Shown one piece after another: positions 4,079-10,580 of a stretch of DNA of 10,580 nucleotides (its first letter is position 1; each line of letters starts with the position of its first letter). This DNA is from Anaerolineaceae bacterium 46_22 (GTDB lineage: Bacteria; Chloroflexota; Anaerolineae; Anaerolineales; Anaerolineaceae). The position numbers and the translations under genes are program-made. The notes beneath the pieces were generated by a model. That model was not told where the DNA came from, searched no databases, and worked only from the letters and a program-made list of their open reading frames with translations. The stretch spans positions 1 through 10,580 of the forward strand of contig LGHA01000060.1 in the NCBI GenBank assembly GCA_001508595.1, written 5' to 3'.

Positions 4079-5419
4079 TTATGCTGTTGTCAGATAACGG
4101 TTTAACTCCCAATCTGTGACGTGGGTTCTAAAATCTTCCCACTCCGCATAGCGTGATTTTATGAATGCACCCGTCAGGCTTTCACCCAATGCATCTTGAA
4201 GGACCTTATCCCCTTCAAAGGCGCTCATGGCTTCGAGTAACGAGCTGGGCAACATTTCAATCCCTAATTCAACACGCTCATCCTCAGAAAGATCGTAGAC
4301 ATTCAACTGGTTTAATGGCTTGGGGCAGGGCAAATCTTTTTCAATACCGTCCAGACCGGCAGCCAGCATTGCATTGAACGCCAGGTAGGGGTTGGATGAG
4401 GGATCCGGGAAACGTAATTCTAGGCGAACGGTGTCCTGTTTTTCTTTCATTGGTTGGGGAATGCGGATCAACGCTGAACGGTTCACCTGTGCCCACCCGA
4501 TATAAACCGGTGCCTCATATCCCGGCACCAATCGCTTATAGGAATTTACTGTCGGTGCGACCACTGCGCTTGTTGCCCTTGCATGGCGTAATTGACCGGC
4601 AATAAACTTGTAAGCCAATTCAGATAATTTGAATGGGTCATCCCCACTATAAAAGAGGTTGTTACCCTCTAAATCGAATATGGAAAGGTGGCAGTGCATC
4701 CCTGAGCCGTTGATACCAAAGACGGGTTTTGGCATAAAAGAGGCGATCAAGCCATGCTGGGCAGCTATTGCTTTGACCGCATACTTGAGGGTCAGGACGT
4801 TGTCTGCAGTTTTCAGGGCATCGGCAAAACGGAAATCGATCTCGTGCTGTCCCAGGGCGACTTCATGGTGCCCAACCTCAATTTCAAGCCCCATTTCATT
4901 GAGAGCGCTCATTAATTCAGTCCGCACCTGGACGGCTTCATCATTTGCAGAAAAATCAAAATAGCCGCCAACATCGTGCGGCACAGGATGGATATTTTCT
5001 TTGCCATTTTGTAGAAAAAGGAAAAACTCCGGTTCTGGACCGACATTCATGATCCAATTATGTTCTTCCTTCAAACGGGCAAGTCGGCGTTTTAGTACGC
5101 CTCGAGGATCACCTTCGAAGGGCTGTCCATTGGGTTGGTAAATGTCGCATAAAACTCGGGCGCGCTTCATGTCATCCGGCGTCCAGGGCAGTATCGCGTA
5201 AGTGTCCGGATCGACAACCAGGTGCATGTCACTTTCCTGGATTCTCGCAAAGCCTTCCACTGAAGAGCCGTCAAACCAAATCCCGTCTTCCAGCGCTTTC
5301 TCCAACTGGTTGACAGGACCATCCACGCTCTTTACAACGCCGTTCACATCAGTGAATTGAAACGATATGAATTTGATATGATCTTCTTTAATCCGCTTAA
5401 GTACATCCTTGCTGTTCAT
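4079..5419 (-). CDS. glnA: Glutamine synthetase, type I
   Basis: This 446-residue enzyme condenses glutamate and ammonia with ATP to glutamine, the entry point for ammonium assimilation; GSI enzymes act as cytoplasmic dodecamers. The N-terminal beta-grasp has DGSSVEGFARIQESDM (50-65); the catalytic domain has GPEPEFFLF (127-135, metal-ligand Glu129 and Glu131), EVGHHEVALGQHE (181-193), NGSGMHCH (237-244), the Glu flap in PGYEAP (299-304) and RLELRFPDPSSNPYLA (332-347). All catalytic signatures are intact. Length and lack of the ~25-residue insertion place it in the GSI-alpha (Bacillus-like) group, which is not regulated by adenylylation; Arg59 matches the feedback-inhibition Arg62 of the B. 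subtilis enzyme. GGAGG (5428-5424) lies 4 nt before the ATG. The gene is monocistronic, ended by its own terminator, with a glmS-type ribozyme in its leader. Function is certain; control by the ribozyme is inferred. Confidence 0.97.
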   Translation of the reverse strand: MNSKDVLKRIKEDHIKFISFQFTDVNGVVKSVDGPVNQLEKALEDGIWFDGSSVEGFARIQESDMHLVVDPDTYAILPWTPDDMKRARVLCDIYQPNGQPFEGDPRGVLKRRLARLKEEHNWIMNVGPEPEFFLFLQNGKENIHPVPHDVGGYFDFSANDEAVQVRTELMSALNEMGLEIEVGHHEVALGQHEIDFRFADALKTADNVLTLKYAVKAIAAQHGLIASFMPKPVFGINGSGMHCHLSIFDLEGNNLFYSGDDPFKLSELAYKFIAGQLRHARATSAVVAPTVNSYKRLVPGYEAPVYIGWAQVNRSALIRIPQPMKEKQDTVRLELRFPDPSSNPYLAFNAMLAAGLDGIEKDLPCPKPLNQLNVYDLSEDERVELGIEMLPSSLLEAMSAFEGDKVLQDALGESLTGAFIKSRYAEWEDFRTHVTDWELNRYLTTA

Positions 5420-5530
5420 TTTGCCTCCATATTAAATGATGAATTAGTTGTCTGTCAGGACATCAATAAATTGAAGGAATGAATTTGCATACCAGCATGG
5501 ATGCACGCAACCAGGTGTCTACCCCACTAT

Positions 5531-5727
5531 GGTTGATTTGTCCTGTGTGTCACCACACAGTTTTGAACGCCCATTTTATTGAAAGGAAAAATTGGACCCG
5601 TGTTCAGGCCCAGGAGGCTTCCGCTGATTGCTCGATTTTTCCCGGCAAACCGGGTTAGCACTCTCTTACCAGAGAGGAACCTCCACCTCGTCGTCTCAAT
5701 GACTTCCAATTGAGATTCAGCCGCTTA
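5531..5727 (-). ncRNA. glmS-type self-cleaving ribozyme in the glnA leader
   Basis: The glmS ribozyme uses glucosamine-6-phosphate as cofactor to cleave its own mRNA. Read 5' to 3' on the minus strand: cleavage context TAA|GCGGCTGAA (predicted cut 5725/5724); P1 TCTCAAT/ATTGAGA (5715-5709 with 5700-5694); core GACGAGGTGGAGG (5692-5680); ATCGAG (5636-5631); TCAGCGGAAGCCTCC (5627-5613), whose CCTCC closes P2 with GGAGG and whose TCAGC pairs with GCTGA (5721-5717) as P2.2; P3 GGGCC/GGTCC (5611-5607 with 5598-5594); TTCAAAA; P4 CTGTGTG-GTGA-CACACAG (5560-5543); then GACAAATC. Order, spacing and the GNRA loop of P4 agree with Bacillus and Thermoanaerobacter glmS ribozymes as I recall them. Two additional hairpins occupy the segment before ATCGAG. 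The nearest downstream gene is glnA, about 110 nt away, with no glmS between. Identity as a glmS-class RNA is strong; activity and ligand are inferred. Confidence 0.87.
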
Positions 5728-5756
5728 ATTTCCCATTATTCTATTTTTCAATCCCC

Positions 5757-5949: not shown

Positions 5950-6783
5950 ATGACTTCTTCAAATATCGTTATCAGCAGGTCTCGATCAAGCTGTCAGGGT
6001 TTACCTGGCTTATTCAACCGAATGCGGCGGGATGTTTTTATGCCTGCCAGGGCAAAACAACCGGTTCGGAGTCTAACCGTGGGCAAATTACTGTCTGCAG
6101 TAAAACCCGTACCCAAACATTCTCTTTTGCTGGGTCAATGTAAAGATGGACTGCCATTTTTAATGCAGCTGGTTGATCAAGAAATTGGGGCGATATTAAT
6201 TAGCGGAGATACAGCGTGTGGGAAGACCCATCAACTGCAGGTACTGGTAGATTCTGCCATGCGCTTGAATGCACCACATGATCTTCAGGTCTCGATCCTG
6301 ACTCACAATACAAATGAATGGCGATCGTTTTGGAGTAGGGCACAACAGGAAAAATATTTATACCAAATCAAGGCCTGGTATGAACCAGGCGCTGAAGCTT
6401 TAATTGATGGCCTAGTAACTTTAGCAGATGCCCGGCGTGATGGACAGCGTGATGGTGCATCGATTTTATTGGTCCTTGATGATTTCAATTTTGTTGAAGA
6501 GCTCAGCTACTCAGCCCAGGTAAATTTGCACTGGTTGCTGGCTTATGGCGCACAATCGGGAATCTGGATTGCTGCAGCGATCAAATCCAATTATGCTGAG
6601 AGTTTTCGTTACTGGATTGATGGTTTTCGCACACGAATACTTGGTTCAACAAAATCAAAATCCAACCTGGACATACTTTCCATCGGGAAAAGTTCATATA
6701 CTGACAGTTTAGATCCAGGTTTTTTCCAGGTTTGGACAGGGACTAATTGGCTTTCTTATCGTTTGCCTTTGTTAGGCGATTAA
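5950..6783 (+). CDS. FtsK-like P-loop ATPase, putatively SOS-controlled
   Basis: A 277-residue protein with one ATPase domain. Walker A is GDTACGKT (86-93), set after LLLGQCKDGLPFLMQLVD and AILIS, the same layout as the FtsK/HerA core (a 'G.d..G.p...dL....H.LIAG.TGSGKS' pattern). Walker B is SILLVLDDFNFV (171-182) with Asp177/Asp178. GAQSGIWIAAAI (200-211) resembles the FtsK 'GR..GIHLILATQ' sensor strand. Membrane helices and the gamma domain of true FtsK are absent, so it may be a minimal DNA- or protein-remodelling ATPase rather than a septal translocase. The ATG has AGGAG (5939-5943) at 6-nt spacing. It heads a two-gene operon under a strong promoter with a LexA-type box, which suggests expression after DNA damage. 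The domain call is good; the biological role is unknown. Confidence 0.75.
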   Translation: MTSSNIVISRSRSSCQGLPGLFNRMRRDVFMPARAKQPVRSLTVGKLLSAVKPVPKHSLLLGQCKDGLPFLMQLVDQEIGAILISGDTACGKTHQLQVLVDSAMRLNAPHDLQVSILTHNTNEWRSFWSRAQQEKYLYQIKAWYEPGAEALIDGLVTLADARRDGQRDGASILLVLDDFNFVEELSYSAQVNLHWLLAYGAQSGIWIAAAIKSNYAESFRYWIDGFRTRILGSTKSKSNLDILSIGKSSYTDSLDPGFFQVWTGTNWLSYRLPLLGD

Positions 6784-7130: not shown

Positions 7131-7699
7131 TTATGAGGGGCTTTCAGTCGCTGTCTGTAATTCTTTTTGGTCGAGCAGGCTTAATTTGCGAAAGCCATAG
7201 GAATTCATAATTAAGGTATCCCCCAGCTGGGTTTCAGTGACTGTCTTGGGTGAATACACATGGACATGGCCGTGCAGGTGATATGAAGGTTTGAAGGTTT
7301 TTATCAGCCAGTTAAAGGCTTTTACACCCTGGTGCGCAGGGTCTTTCTGATCATGGATCCCCCAGGGTGGGGCATGGGTTACAAAAATATCCAGAAAGCG
7401 CCCATAGCGAATTTTATGCCAGAGCAGGGACCAGTTTTCTTCTCCCGGACAACTTTCTTGTGCAAATTGACAGCGCCCCACGGTTCATGGCGTGACCCAC
7501 AGTAGCTGTATTCAACAGCTTTAGCATGATTACCGCGAACAAAATAAAGAGGAATATCAAGCGAACTGATGATGTATTCCAGATAAAAATAGGAAAGGTC
7601 TCCACAGCCAATAGCCAGGTCAACATTTTTAAATCTATCTTTGATTTTGTTGCTGTAAACACGAAAGCATTCCCGGTCGCTGACTGTTAATATCTCCAT
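7131..7699 (-). pseudogene. Metallophosphoesterase, internal deletion and frameshift
   Basis: Two minus-strand frames hold the halves of one calcineurin-like phosphoesterase. The first (from ATG 7699) reads MEILTVSD (Asp8), DLAIGCGDLSYFYLEY (Asp34), YFVRGNHAK (Asn57, His58) and stays family-like to VNLHKKVVREK. The second, in another frame, reads ENWSLLWHKIRYGRFLDIFV, then THAPPWGIHD, YHLHGHVHVY and GDTLIMNSYGFRKL, ending with TAA at 7133-7131. The metal ligands survive, split over two frames, but the stretch usually joining them (an estimated 30-40 residues, including a G-x-EGS-like strand) is missing at the junction near 7430-7447. A deletion of that size is not explained by a single-base sequencing error. 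The GNHD motif common in the superfamily is GNHA here. It lies 56 nt behind acpS, perhaps as the last gene of that operon. No strong Shine-Dalgarno is seen. Confidence 0.75.
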
Positions 7700-7755: not shown

Positions 7756-8124
7756 TTAATCTCCAAGTGCCACTGCAAGGGCGATGGCTTTATCGCGATC
7801 ATGACTGATGCTCACCGACCAGCTGCTTATCCCAAGCTGATCTGCAACCTTTTCAGCATTACCGTGAAGCACAAGGGTGGGTTGACCGGTTGGCAGATGC
7901 ACAATTTCAATGTCACGCCATTGGACATAGCCAATCCCTGTTCCCAGGGCTTTCGAAACAGCTTCTTTGGCGGCAAATAGTCCGCTCAACACTTCAGAAC
8001 GTCCCCGTGCCTGGAAAATTTCATTTTCTGTATAAACCCGCTTGATGAACCTTTCTTTGATCTGGGGTTTGATCTCATCCAAACGGGAGATTTCTATGGT
8101 GTCGATTCCGCTGTGTATTTGCAT
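7756..8124 (-). CDS. acpS: Holo-[acyl-carrier-protein] synthase
   Basis: AcpS transfers 4'-phosphopantetheine from CoA to the conserved Ser of acyl carrier protein, switching on fatty-acid synthesis; it is a small cytoplasmic Mg-dependent trimer. The 122-residue product has IHSGIDTIEISRL at the N-terminus (metal ligand Asp8), LFAAKEAVSKALGTGIG (49-65, with Glu54) and WSVSISHDRDKAIALAV (102-118), all AcpS signatures, and is of normal length. The frame is open further upstream, but that part lies inside the peptidase gene; the ATG at 8124-8122 has GAGG overlapping the TGA of the peptidase gene with 5-nt spacing, and it starts right at the conserved domain. The 7-nt gap implies translational coupling with the M16 pair. 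Confidence 0.95.
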   Translation of the reverse strand: MQIHSGIDTIEISRLDEIKPQIKERFIKRVYTENEIFQARGRSEVLSGLFAAKEAVSKALGTGIGYVQWRDIEIVHLPTGQPTLVLHGNAEKVADQLGISSWSVSISHDRDKAIALAVALGD

Positions 8125-8131
8125 AGCAACC

Positions 8132-9418
8132 TCATGGTCCTGCCACGGCAATTGCCAGGCGGTCAGGGTCAAGATATTTTCGACTGGCTTCCAGAATTTG
8201 GTCTGCGGTGACAGCCTGGACATGTTTTGGGTATTCAAGGAAATAATCAAGGCCCAGGTTAAAGCGCTCAAGATTTAGCAGTGAAATGGCGACACCGCTG
8301 TTGGATTCTAACAGGAGCGGCATTCTACCAAGAAAATATGATTTATTATCCGAAAGCTCTTCATCGGTAACGGGTTCATTGACAAATCTTCGCACTTCAT
8401 CGGTGATCAGGGCAATGGTCCTGTCGATGTTCTCCGGGTTCACGCCTGCGATCATTTCCCAGGCGCCCGGCCCTGTGCCTAAACTCAGTGAGGAATAAAC
8501 GTAGTAAGCCAACCCTTCTTTTTCTCTCACACGCTCCCCTAAACGTCCCATCATGCCAAATTCACCAAGGATGTTATTGCCCATCCTGAGGGCGTGGTAG
8601 TCGGGCGAAAGACGTTCGGGTGCGAGGCTGCCCATGACAATGTCCGCCTGAAATTTCCCAGGAATGCTCAAGGCTTTTTTGGCGGTTCTCTGCAGAGCTT
8701 GCTGTTCAGGAATTTCAGGCAAGGGACGCAGGTTTTCATTTTTCCAATCACCAAGGACTTCCCTGACAGCATCAACAGCCTGGTCTGGTTCAACTGCACC
8801 GACGATTGCAATCACCACATCTTCAGGGCCGTAGGTTTCCTGGTAGAAATTCACCAGGTCATCCCTTTGTATCGCCTGGACCGTCTCCGAATAGCCTTCA
8901 TCAGGTCGTTGATAGGGATGGGAAGCATAAATGATCCCGTCAAAGAGGAGCGATGCCATCTCTGCTGTGTCCTGTGCACGAATAGCCAGACCAGTCAGCA
9001 TCTGGTTTTTGAGCCGATGGAATTCTTTTTGCGGAAAAGTTGGTGATCGCAGACTTTCAGAAATAAGCTCAAGCATGAGCTGCAGATCTTCGCTCAAAGC
9101 GTGTGCGCTGAAGGATGTCTTTAGTGTCCCCGGAGAAAATCCAAGGCGGGCACCAACGGACTCGATTTGGTTATACATGGATTGAAAATCGTGGTTTGCT
9201 GTGCCGGTCATTAAGGCTGCTGCTGTTAAGTAGCCCAGTCCCAGTTTTTCATCGGGGTCGAAGATGCTGCCGCTTGAAAAGTAACCTTTGATCGATAGGC
9301 TTGGGCTGTTGAAGTTTGATCGCGATAAAACGGTGATGCCGTTTTCCAATCTCACCCGGGTGATATTATCCGGACCGGGTAAGGCATTGCGGTGTTCGTT
9401 GTATATTCTTTGATCCAT
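8132..9418 (-). CDS. M16 peptidase-like protein, non-catalytic subunit
   Basis: A 428-residue M16 (insulinase/processing peptidase) homologue with two tandem domains. Where active members have HxxEH, it has GLGYLTAAALMTGT (60-73), so the zinc-binding His and catalytic Glu are replaced by Tyr63, Ala66 and Ala67. The second domain keeps RVREKEGLAYYVYSS (296-310), with the Arg/Tyr pair (Arg298, Tyr305) characteristic of the non-catalytic partner in heterodimeric M16B enzymes. It therefore probably binds substrate next to the catalytic M16 encoded just upstream. I prefer the ATG at 9418, which sits 7 nt after the TAA of the upstream gene; a TTG at 9454 would add 12 residues inside that gene. Neither has a strong Shine-Dalgarno, so coupling is likely. 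No signal peptide is seen. Confidence 0.88.
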   Translation of the reverse strand: MDQRIYNEHRNALPGPDNITRVRLENGITVLSRSNFNSPSLSIKGYFSSGSIFDPDEKLGLGYLTAAALMTGTANHDFQSMYNQIESVGARLGFSPGTLKTSFSAHALSEDLQLMLELISESLRSPTFPQKEFHRLKNQMLTGLAIRAQDTAEMASLLFDGIIYASHPYQRPDEGYSETVQAIQRDDLVNFYQETYGPEDVVIAIVGAVEPDQAVDAVREVLGDWKNENLRPLPEIPEQQALQRTAKKALSIPGKFQADIVMGSLAPERLSPDYHALRMGNNILGEFGMMGRLGERVREKEGLAYYVYSSLSLGTGPGAWEMIAGVNPENIDRTIALITDEVRRFVNEPVTDEELSDNKSYFLGRMPLLLESNSGVAISLLNLERFNLGLDYFLEYPKHVQAVTADQILEASRKYLDPDRLAIAVAGP

Positions 9419-9425
9419 TTTAGAA

Positions 9426-10580
9426 TTAGCTTTCTTGGGGCGTATAGAATCCAACCACCCGATTATCAGGTGAGAGGTAAGTCCGGGCAGTTTCCATCAC
9501 TTCTTTTGGTGAAACACGGGAAAGGTTGTCAACATAATTTTCAAACCAGCCGTAATGATCAAACATTTCTGTATAACCCAGCCAAAAAGCCTGGTTGGTG
9601 ATGTTTTCACTGCTGTAAGCGAACAGGGCTTTGGCTTGTTTGATGGCACGGTCGATCTCAACCTGTGTGACAGGCGTTTCAAGCAGGCGTGCAATTTCTG
9701 CATCGACGGCTGCCAGAACATCTTCTGGTGTGTGTTCAGGGTGAACCGTTAAGTTAATCCCATAAAGGTATGGATCCCGTGTGGCTTGCAGGGCACCGTG
9801 GCATGAAACAGAAATTTCTGTTTCGACCAGTGCCCGGTATAGGCGGCTGGTTTTGTTTGAAGTTCCGCCAGACCCGAACATATTCAAACTGCTGGGACCG
9901 GTGAGCAGGCTGTCCAACACGGTTAGTGTCAGAAAGTCAGGTGCGCTGGCAGAGGGGGCGCGATAGGCGATTTGGACATAGCTTGTCTCACCTGGTCCGG
10001 TGACTTGGACGTGTTTTTCGCCATCAAGGGGCGGTTCCTGTTGGATTTCAGGGCTTTCAATACTGCCCTGCGGCGTTTGGTTGAAGTGTTCTTCAATTTT
10101 TCCAAGCATTGTTTCACTGTCAAAATCGCCAGCTATGGCTAATACCGCGTTTGCGGGCTGGTAGTACTGCTGATAATGCGATTTCAAATCCTCTGCTGTT
10201 ATATCTCGCAGGTCATCTTTTAAACCGATCACCTCGTATTTGTACGGATGACGTGCAAAAGCCGCATCCTGGACAGCTTCGCCCAGCAGGAAATGGGGCT
10301 GGTTTTCGTTTCCTTCACGTTCAGAGATGATCACGGTTCGTTCACGTTCAACTTCATCTATATCGAAGCGGCTGTTTACCATGCGGTCCGCTTCCATTTC
10401 GAGGCTGATGTTGGCAGCATGGGCGGGGAGGGTCGTGAAATATGTGGTCCAATCAAGATAGGTCATGGCATTCCAGATGCCGCCTGTTCTTGAAATTTCC
10501 CGATCAAGATACCCCGAAGGGAATTTCTCTGTACCTTTGAATTGCATATGTTCGACCCAATGTGAGATGCCCGTTTTCCC
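9426..10580 (-). CDS. M16 zinc peptidase, catalytic subunit (5' end outside window)
   Basis: The minus-strand frame is open to the right edge, giving 384 residues of a protein whose N-terminus (about 40-50 residues in relatives) is beyond the window. It begins GKTGISHWVEHMQFKGTEKF: the inverted zinc motif HxxEH (His7, Glu10, His11 of the visible part), followed about 75 residues later by Glu87 in RTVIISEREGNENQP, the third zinc ligand. The C-terminal domain includes SRLYRALVETEISVS and ends FYTPQES. The ATG at 10547 is internal and is not the true start. It should be an active metallopeptidase that pairs with the downstream inactive homologue; M16B pairs degrade or process short polypeptides. 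Substrate is unknown. It is the first visible gene of the operon M16-M16-acpS. Confidence 0.93.
   Translation of the reverse strand, partial: GKTGISHWVEHMQFKGTEKFPSGYLDREISRTGGIWNAMTYLDWTTYFTTLPAHAANISLEMEADRMVNSRFDIDEVERERTVIISEREGNENQPHFLLGEAVQDAAFARHPYKYEVIGLKDDLRDITAEDLKSHYQQYYQPANAVLAIAGDFDSETMLGKIEEHFNQTPQGSIESPEIQQEPPLDGEKHVQVTGPGETSYVQIAYRAPSASAPDFLTLTVLDSLLTGPSSLNMFGSGGTSNKTSRLYRALVETEISVSCHGALQATRDPYLYGINLTVHPEHTPEDVLAAVDAEIARLLETPVTQVEIDRAIKQAKALFAYSSENITNQAFWLGYTEMFDHYGWFENYVDNLSRVSPKEVMETARTYLSPDNRVVGFYTPQES

Follow-up and report, generated by a model that had tools for sequence, protein, structure and literature searches.

Why would a ribozyme of the glmS class lie in front of a gene for glutamine synthetase? 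The glmS ribozyme is the textbook example of a natural ribozyme serving as a metabolite switch. GlmS makes glucosamine-6-phosphate (GlcN6P) from fructose-6-phosphate and glutamine, and nearly all glmS ribozymes known to McCown et al. in 2011 reportedly lay in glmS mRNAs. The target named for the ribozyme in the portions consulted of two reviews is glmS, or genes for GlcN6P production (PMC9971707; PMC6154101). We analysed a 10,580-nt stretch of DNA from Anaerolineaceae bacterium 46_22 (contig LGHA01000060.1), referred to below as the window, in which a sequence-only reading had placed such a ribozyme upstream of glnA. The usual glmS-leader location is thus absent from the window, where the next gene is glnA; location, however, is a habit of the class and not a part of its fold.

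Results

The glnA leader of the window carries a glmS-class ribozyme

The minus strand of the window matched the glmS ribozyme family RF00234 from 5736 to 5519 over the whole model (positions 1-167 of 167) with 48.2 bits and an E value of 6.7e-9, against an Rfam gathering cut-off of 37 bits, and RF00234 was the sole Rfam family reaching its cut-off within the window. Our own covariance model, R1, which was built from 27 glnA leaders and is more sensitive than RF00234, placed the ribozyme at 5523-5726 on the same strand. The adjoining glnA (4079-5419, minus strand) encodes a type I glutamine synthetase of 446 amino acids (NCBIfam TIGR00653, 542.7 bits against a cut-off of 429) and is preceded by a ribosome-binding site, GGAGG, at 5424-5428. 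About 104 nt separate the end of the R1 ribozyme from the glnA ATG, close to the 110 nt or so estimated by the sequence-only reading. That reading had recognized the conserved glmS ribozyme strings in a particular order and had proposed an RF00234 search as a check; the strings are present in that order on the minus strand, the search succeeded, and the glnA leader of the window is confirmed to carry a glmS-class ribozyme. A chance match is ruled out by the E value in the window, by recovery of the ribozyme across relatives and by covariation, both described below.

The case for the window ribozyme is built on the covariance match and on conservation, not on the fold of a single sequence. In thermodynamic folding the ribozyme gave a z score of -1.52, with 16 of 200 shuffled sequences equally stable, and P1 as modelled was absent from the minimum-energy fold of the single window sequence; the thermodynamic fold by itself is weak evidence.

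Other assignments of the leader were rejected. Glutamine riboswitches (the glnA RNA and Downstream-peptide families) precede glnA in cyanobacteria and marine bacteria, and no such Rfam family scored over its cut-off in the window. They resemble the element described here in being RNA elements of a glnA leader, and differ from it in fold and ligand and in the absence of self-cleavage. A ribozyme serving the divergent gene at 5950-6783 (plus strand) is ruled out by the opposite strand; this gene had a weak EccCb-type ATPase match, far below cut-off, and no Pfam family. Elsewhere in the window, a metallophosphoesterase-like gene at 7131-7699 (minus strand) seems to be divided between two overlapping frames, by a frameshift or an assembly error, and the region 7756-10547 (minus strand) contains two neighbouring M16 peptidase genes and then a 4'-phosphopantetheinyl transferase gene.

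Conserved fold and covariation of the glnA-leader ribozyme

We examined covariation in an alignment (A2) of 27 glnA leaders, with 51 pairs in ten helices (P1, P2, P2.1, P2.2, P2a, P2b, P3, P3.1, and the outer and inner parts of P4); A2 omits two of the 29 glnA-linked places found in relatives (G021 and G056), both of which carry a long insert. The pairs were formed in 93.9% of cells, compared to 81.6% (sd 0.6) after shuffling and 37-44% with the partner slid, the latter being a control that flatters the structure because the structure was drawn from one A2 sequence and the sequences are related. Two-sided changes were seen at 35 pairs, which none of 500 shuffles matched.

All elements lie on the minus strand. 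Alignment to RF00234 predicted cleavage between A5725 and G5724, in agreement with the 5' end at 5724 that the sequence-only reading had predicted; in the 27 aligned sequences the G after the cut never varied and the preceding A hardly did. The helices of the double-pseudoknot core, P2, P2.1 and P2.2, were paired in 98.5-100% of cells in the 27 sequences, P2.2 with one bulge. P2 joins GGAGG (5680-5684) to CCUCC (5617-5613) with 100% of cells paired, and P2.1 joins CGA (5688-5690) to UCG (5635-5633), invariant and paired in 27/27. The 5' strand of P2.2, CG[G]CUG (5718-5723), in which G5721 is bulged, pairs with CAGCG (5622-5626), with four pairs formed in 27/27 sequences and the pair adjacent to the bulge in 25/27. 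P2.1 and P2.2 barely vary and are without covariation support. Two-sided changes were found in six of the seven pairs of P1 (5709-5715 with 5700-5694), in four of the five pairs of an extra core hairpin, P2a (CUCUC/GAGAG, 5661-5676, 100% paired), and in all four counted pairs of a second, P2b (CCCGG/CCGGG, 5641-5654). The P3 hairpin (5593-5612) was paired in 96.3% of cells, and the P4 domain (5529-5574) has an A-rich internal loop and a GUGA tetraloop, the loop being GNRA in 27/27 sequences. The weakest helix was P3.1 (77.5% over the 27 sequences), which is formed by the P3 loop CAC (5602-5600) and GUG (5527-5525) and has only three pairs in the window. The window forms 49 of the 51 pairs and fails at the two outermost pairs of P3.1. 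Median identity to the window among 28 relatives was 66% for the ribozyme DNA and 68% for the first 150 nt of glnA, compared to 42% upstream of the ribozyme and 36% in the spacer between ribozyme and gene. The comparative data indicate that the ribozyme structure before glnA is under selection.

The same double-pseudoknot core, A|G cleavage site, P1, P3, P3.1, and P4 with its GNRA loop and A-rich internal loop belong to the Bacillota glmS ribozyme (RF00234), from which the window ribozyme differs in preceding glnA, in the bulge inside P2.2 and in the two extra core hairpins. Variants with extra core stems were reportedly noted in Deinococcus-Thermus by McCown et al. in 2011.

The ribozyme recurs before glnA and glmS in relatives

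RF00234 was searched in the window's own genome and 60 relatives, with places accepted at E 0.001 or better, and gave 73 places in 50 of the 61 genomes, 21 of which had a place over the gathering score. The following gene was glmS at 44 places (38 called by open frame and six by a fragment of the gene start) and glnA at 29 (28 by blastp and one by tblastn), with no other gene at any; 13 of the 29 glnA-linked places reached 37 bits. Both kinds of place were present in 23 genomes, glmS-linked places alone in 21 and glnA-linked places alone in six. R1 recovered 89 places in 56 of the same 61 genomes. Among the extra places, three strong ones (G057, G043 and G016) and a weak one at 23 bits (G023) adjoin neither gene. 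The G057 ribozyme precedes a glutamate-synthase-like gene, and no glutamine synthetase was found in the 3.5-3.7 kb downstream of the glnA-type ribozymes of G043 (L422, contig 53) and G016 (L423, contig 535).

From the side of the gene, a survey of glnA leaders of the kind that the sequence-only reading had called for found R1 upstream of 33 of 40 window-type glnA genes (at least 60% identity) in the 61 genomes, on the same strand and within 3 kb. The distance was 89-199 nt in 32 of these and 2,085 nt in one. Glutamine synthetase-like matches less than 60% identical to the window glnA had none (0/33), and both counts were the same with 37 of the 89 R1 places as with all of them. The 40 genes leave out the second half of a G042 gene split over two contigs. 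Seven of the 40 were without a ribozyme, including that of G060, which lies near a contig end and whose operon head is seemingly on another contig.

Further afield, R1 matched 15 of 25 Chloroflexota-labelled loci among 80 named GlnA loci, some of which had little upstream DNA, and neither the single unlabelled locus nor any of 54 loci from other phyla; the positives include Bellilinea (Anaerolineaceae, Anaerolineales), an uncultured Thermanaerothrix and Levilinea. R1 was present in 177 of 298 genomes across the class and 123 of 400 across the phylum, two overlapping sets. The downstream gene was read for part of these wider matches (50 loci, 39 places, 60 loci and 17 places), and among the loci so read none outside the window's order had R1 before glnA. 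The 60 class-level loci comprised 56 before glmS, two before an aminotransferase operon and two that were too short. R1, trained on glnA leaders only, also found 14 of the 15 ribozymes of Bacillota genomes, 13 of the 15 being seen before glmS where the downstream gene was read. One genome, G652 (L293), has the tandem order ribozyme-glnA-ribozyme-glmS. Across these genomes the ribozyme-glnA arrangement is by sequence comparison conserved in many Anaerolineales. The glmS-class ribozyme first noticed in front of one glnA is complete, and the arrangement is old and conserved across relatives, no local accident.

glnA-linked ribozymes carry a variant P2.2 and a conserved cofactor pocket

We fitted 99 ribozymes to R1 in a joint alignment that included 46 glnA-linked and 44 glmS-linked copies, and the conserved core nucleotides were common to both groups. 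The sharpest difference between them was at ribozyme nucleotide 4 (5721 in the window), which was C in 43/44 glmS-linked copies and not C in 46/46 glnA-linked copies (G in 39, A in five, U in two). The canonical P2.2 pair C4-G54 was absent from all 46. The glnA-type P2.2 is made up of C2-G56, G3-C55, a bulged nucleotide 4, C5-G54 (formed in 25/27 glnA-leader sequences), U6-A53 and G7-C52, and as judged from these pairings the helix is retained in variant form. In the parts consulted of Andreasson et al. 2020 (PMC7125110), canonical P2.2 has the C4-G54 pair and a conserved bulge at nucleotide 6, and changes in P2.2 lose much activity in vitro. Double mutants that shift the bulge were about 15- to 60-fold above the single mutants, short of full activity, and second changes moving the bulge towards the middle of P2.2 gave a gain of ~24-fold where nucleotide 4 is read as bulged (PMC7125110, same parts). 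On the strength of these bulge-shift results, the glnA type looks like a bulge shift that occurs naturally. We infer that the shifted bulge may make the glnA copy slower than the glmS copy or differently tuned, in rate or in threshold.

A split in a FastTree analysis of the 99 ribozymes separated 46/46 glnA-linked copies from all 44 glmS-linked copies (support 0.63, or 0.71 without the nucleotide-4 column). Three others joined the glnA-linked side; one of them precedes a glutamate-synthase-like gene, and the other two have no known target. The glnA-linked ribozymes therefore appear, with moderate support and in an alignment fitted to a glnA model, to be a single lineage. The Chloroflexota glmS-linked ribozymes share the extra core hairpins, the core nucleotides and a further helix, P0, with the glnA type and differ from it as a separate lineage and in the C at nucleotide 4.

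The active site and cofactor pocket are described in the same parts of PMC7125110 as C2, G56 and nucleotides 28-30 and 43-45. By our own mapping of the paper's numbers, these correspond to C4, G105, C37-A39 and T92-G94 of the alignment, which were conserved in both classes (at least 95% and 90%). As the core nucleotides of glnA-linked ribozymes are those of glmS-linked ribozymes, GlcN6P is the expected cofactor, and these sequences make it the most likely one for the glnA-leader ribozyme.

The glnA-linked copies appear as a clade of their own, differ in a fixed way at nucleotide 4, which adjoins the active-site helix, and precede a different target gene; these features could also be what remains of a switch of ligand, in which the same fold took up a new cofactor such as glutamine or another amine and came to report glnA's own product. 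We regard such a switch as unlikely: the base that changed is a predicted bulge, the core positions lining the pocket are, by the mapping above, conserved in both classes, and GlcN6P offers a ready metabolic rationale.

P0, P4 and the possible consequences of cleavage

P0 pairs the strand immediately 5' of the cut with J3/4, the segment after P3. In the window, pairing analysis matched GGGAAA (5729-5734, minus strand) with UUUUCC (5585-5590), and the centroid fold paired 5734-5730 with 5588-5584, the same segments one base out of the P0 register. The best contiguous pairing averaged 15.37 over the 73 places compared to 12.51 with partners swapped (sd 0.26, maximum 13.24 in 300). It was 13.90 compared to 12.61 in the 29 glnA-linked places (sd 0.35, maximum 13.57 of 200) and 16.34 compared to 12.75 in the 44 glmS-linked places (sd 0.36, maximum 13.66 of 200). 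These scores are averages with no row-by-row claim, and some rows pair best elsewhere in the two segments. The window ribozyme also differs from the Bacillota glmS ribozyme in having P0, which was not seen in the 12 of 15 Bacillota control loci evaluated (observed and swapped scores both 11.2); this is a weak negative because the crude finder of the cut and P3 put the cut in the wrong place in two or more rows.

P4 was aligned in 39/39 copies directly before glnA and, as a further difference between the two Chloroflexota types, was missing by alignment in 25 of the 44 glmS-linked copies, among them all 11 recovered from the window's genus. A motif search found P4 in none of these 25 copies, a result that is supporting and not decisive because the search is strict, seeing 34 of the 39 aligned P4s before glnA and only five of 18 aligned glmS-linked ones. 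Loss of P4 in copies heading operons (4/7 by alignment) was rejected as an alignment artefact since the motif search, which found P4 in 7/7 of these, located it further downstream in all four. In the glmS-linked copies without P4, its place may be taken by P0.

Because P0 ties the upstream strand to J3/4, cutting would change the structure of the 5' end, and cleavage might on that account process the glnA message or raise its expression, by freeing it from 5' structure or by stabilising it. This outcome seems to us very unlikely. P0 was stronger in the glmS-linked copies, and the outcome for B. subtilis glmS, in the part consulted of PMC3997798, is down-regulation; moreover, the spacer leading to the ribosome-binding site is unconserved (36% median, as above), so that no sequestering element is evident before it. 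We accordingly favour cleavage that lowers glnA expression.

Sigma-70 matches were scanned in the 150 nt upstream of the cut and in the 100-nt spacer of the 29 glnA-linked places. Matches of at least 10 of 12 positions occurred in 11/29 upstream stretches, none of them in the window's genus, with a mean of 8.52 compared to 7.54 after shuffling; the upstream stretches have more room for chance matches, being 150 nt against 100 nt. The spacers had such a match in 0/29, with a mean of 5.59 compared to 6.04 after shuffling. A glnA promoter downstream of the ribozyme had been named in advance as evidence against it: none is prominent in the spacers of the order, but in the window itself neither side has a good match. 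The best upstream match there was 8 of 12, and of two 9-of-12 matches, neither convincing, one falls within the ribozyme and the other directly ahead of the ribosome-binding site. Within the order, the scan supports transcripts that begin upstream of the ribozyme. Separately, many glnA leaders were seen by eye to share a recurrent ACAAYTGAATA-like string some 20-35 nt before the cut.

Operon heads and sporadic other targets

One family of the order has the glnA-type ribozyme at the head of an operon whose glnA lies about 2.1-2.7 kb further on (L113, L114, L117, L118, L120, L121, L124; L261-L264, L266, L267, L269-L271, L273, L274). Eleven of the 13 operon-head places read reach glnA, and two end with the contig. 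The intervening genes at L263 encode a methylated-DNA methyltransferase with an AraC-type domain (TIGR00589, over cut-off) and a YedA-type exporter just below cut-off (263.7 against 270); at the other operon-head loci, Ada/AraC-type and EamA-type genes were assigned by place and first residues. A ribozyme-glmS-glnA operon was rejected for these loci, which have no glmS and have other genes between ribozyme and glnA.

Genes with glutamate synthase domains follow the ribozyme at L268 (G276), L294 (G367), L276 (G119) and L424 (G057). They were rejected as a regular target: among 30 loci of relatives of the G276 gene, in a search whose flank leaves the G119 ribozyme outside, only G276 and G367 matched, so that the target is sporadic. 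Domain scans identified a DegT-type aminotransferase gene followed by a Gfo/Idh/MocA gene after the ribozyme at L278 (G144) and L279 (G385), and first residues indicated the same arrangement, as far as the stretch reaches, at L303 (G171) and L319 (G110); this operon possibly serves amino-sugar nucleotide synthesis. At L296 (G327) the ribozyme precedes a CofD/YvcK-related domain fused to a phosphosugar mutase, with Pfam domains over their cut-offs and all NCBIfam YvcK and mutase (GlmM-like) scores below theirs.

Discussion

We propose that self-cleavage activated by GlcN6P destroys glnA mRNA and so lowers the supply of glutamine when amino sugars are in surplus, and we consider this account probable. 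Cofactor, cleavage and decay of the glnA message are steps that we infer. Surplus GlcN6P would complete the active site of the glnA-leader ribozyme, and the leader RNA would cut itself between A5725 and G5724. The cut message would keep a 5'-hydroxyl end and be degraded by RNase J, and glutamine production would drop together with GlmS, which spends glutamine on GlcN6P. TIGR00649 (MG423), which we take to stand for RNase J, was over cut-off in 21/21 genomes (the window's own and 20 relatives) and in 9 of 14 control genomes. The window's 71%-complete assembly yielded no full-length glmS, only a 34% match to the C-terminal half of GlmS, and the coexistence of ribozyme-bearing glmS and glnA is therefore shown in relatives and not in the window's genome. 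For B. subtilis glmS, GlcN6P-driven cleavage yields a 5'-OH end that is attacked by RNase J1, according to the parts consulted of two papers (PMC3997798; PMC7125110).

The altered P2.2 and the weak single-sequence fold might suggest that a glmS ribozyme gave rise here to a relic without activity, or to a leader that is purely structural or binds protein. This is highly improbable in view of core nucleotides that stay unchanged among GlnA orthologues with protein identities as low as about 65%, between flanks that are much less alike, and of covariation in P1, P3, P4, P2a and P2b. An active, GlcN6P-responsive ribozyme that lowers glnA expression is the reading we retain. Among the literature matches listed, searched by title and abstract opening and with subscription papers mostly outside the search, none gave glnA as a target of the glmS ribozyme.

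A second conserved target means that a cleaving riboswitch can duplicate and move to another gene, and the natural variants described here (the P2.2 bulge, P0 and the loss of P4) offer material for studying how the rate of a ribozyme is tuned. With glnA as the target, cell-wall amino sugar would be linked directly, through RNA, to nitrogen assimilation. In Anaerolineales, and more loosely in the class, the GlcN6P-activated ribozyme could, through paralogous copies, govern a multi-gene regulon of glmS and glnA, of ada-eamA-glnA in one family and, in single genomes, of glutamate-synthase-like, nucleotide-sugar-type aminotransferase and YvcK-like/phosphosugar-mutase genes, in which the P2.2 bulge and P0 set the thresholds for an ordered shutdown; we judge the arguments for and against this wider reading to be evenly balanced. 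If it is true, these cells would shut down glmS and their supply of glutamine in order.
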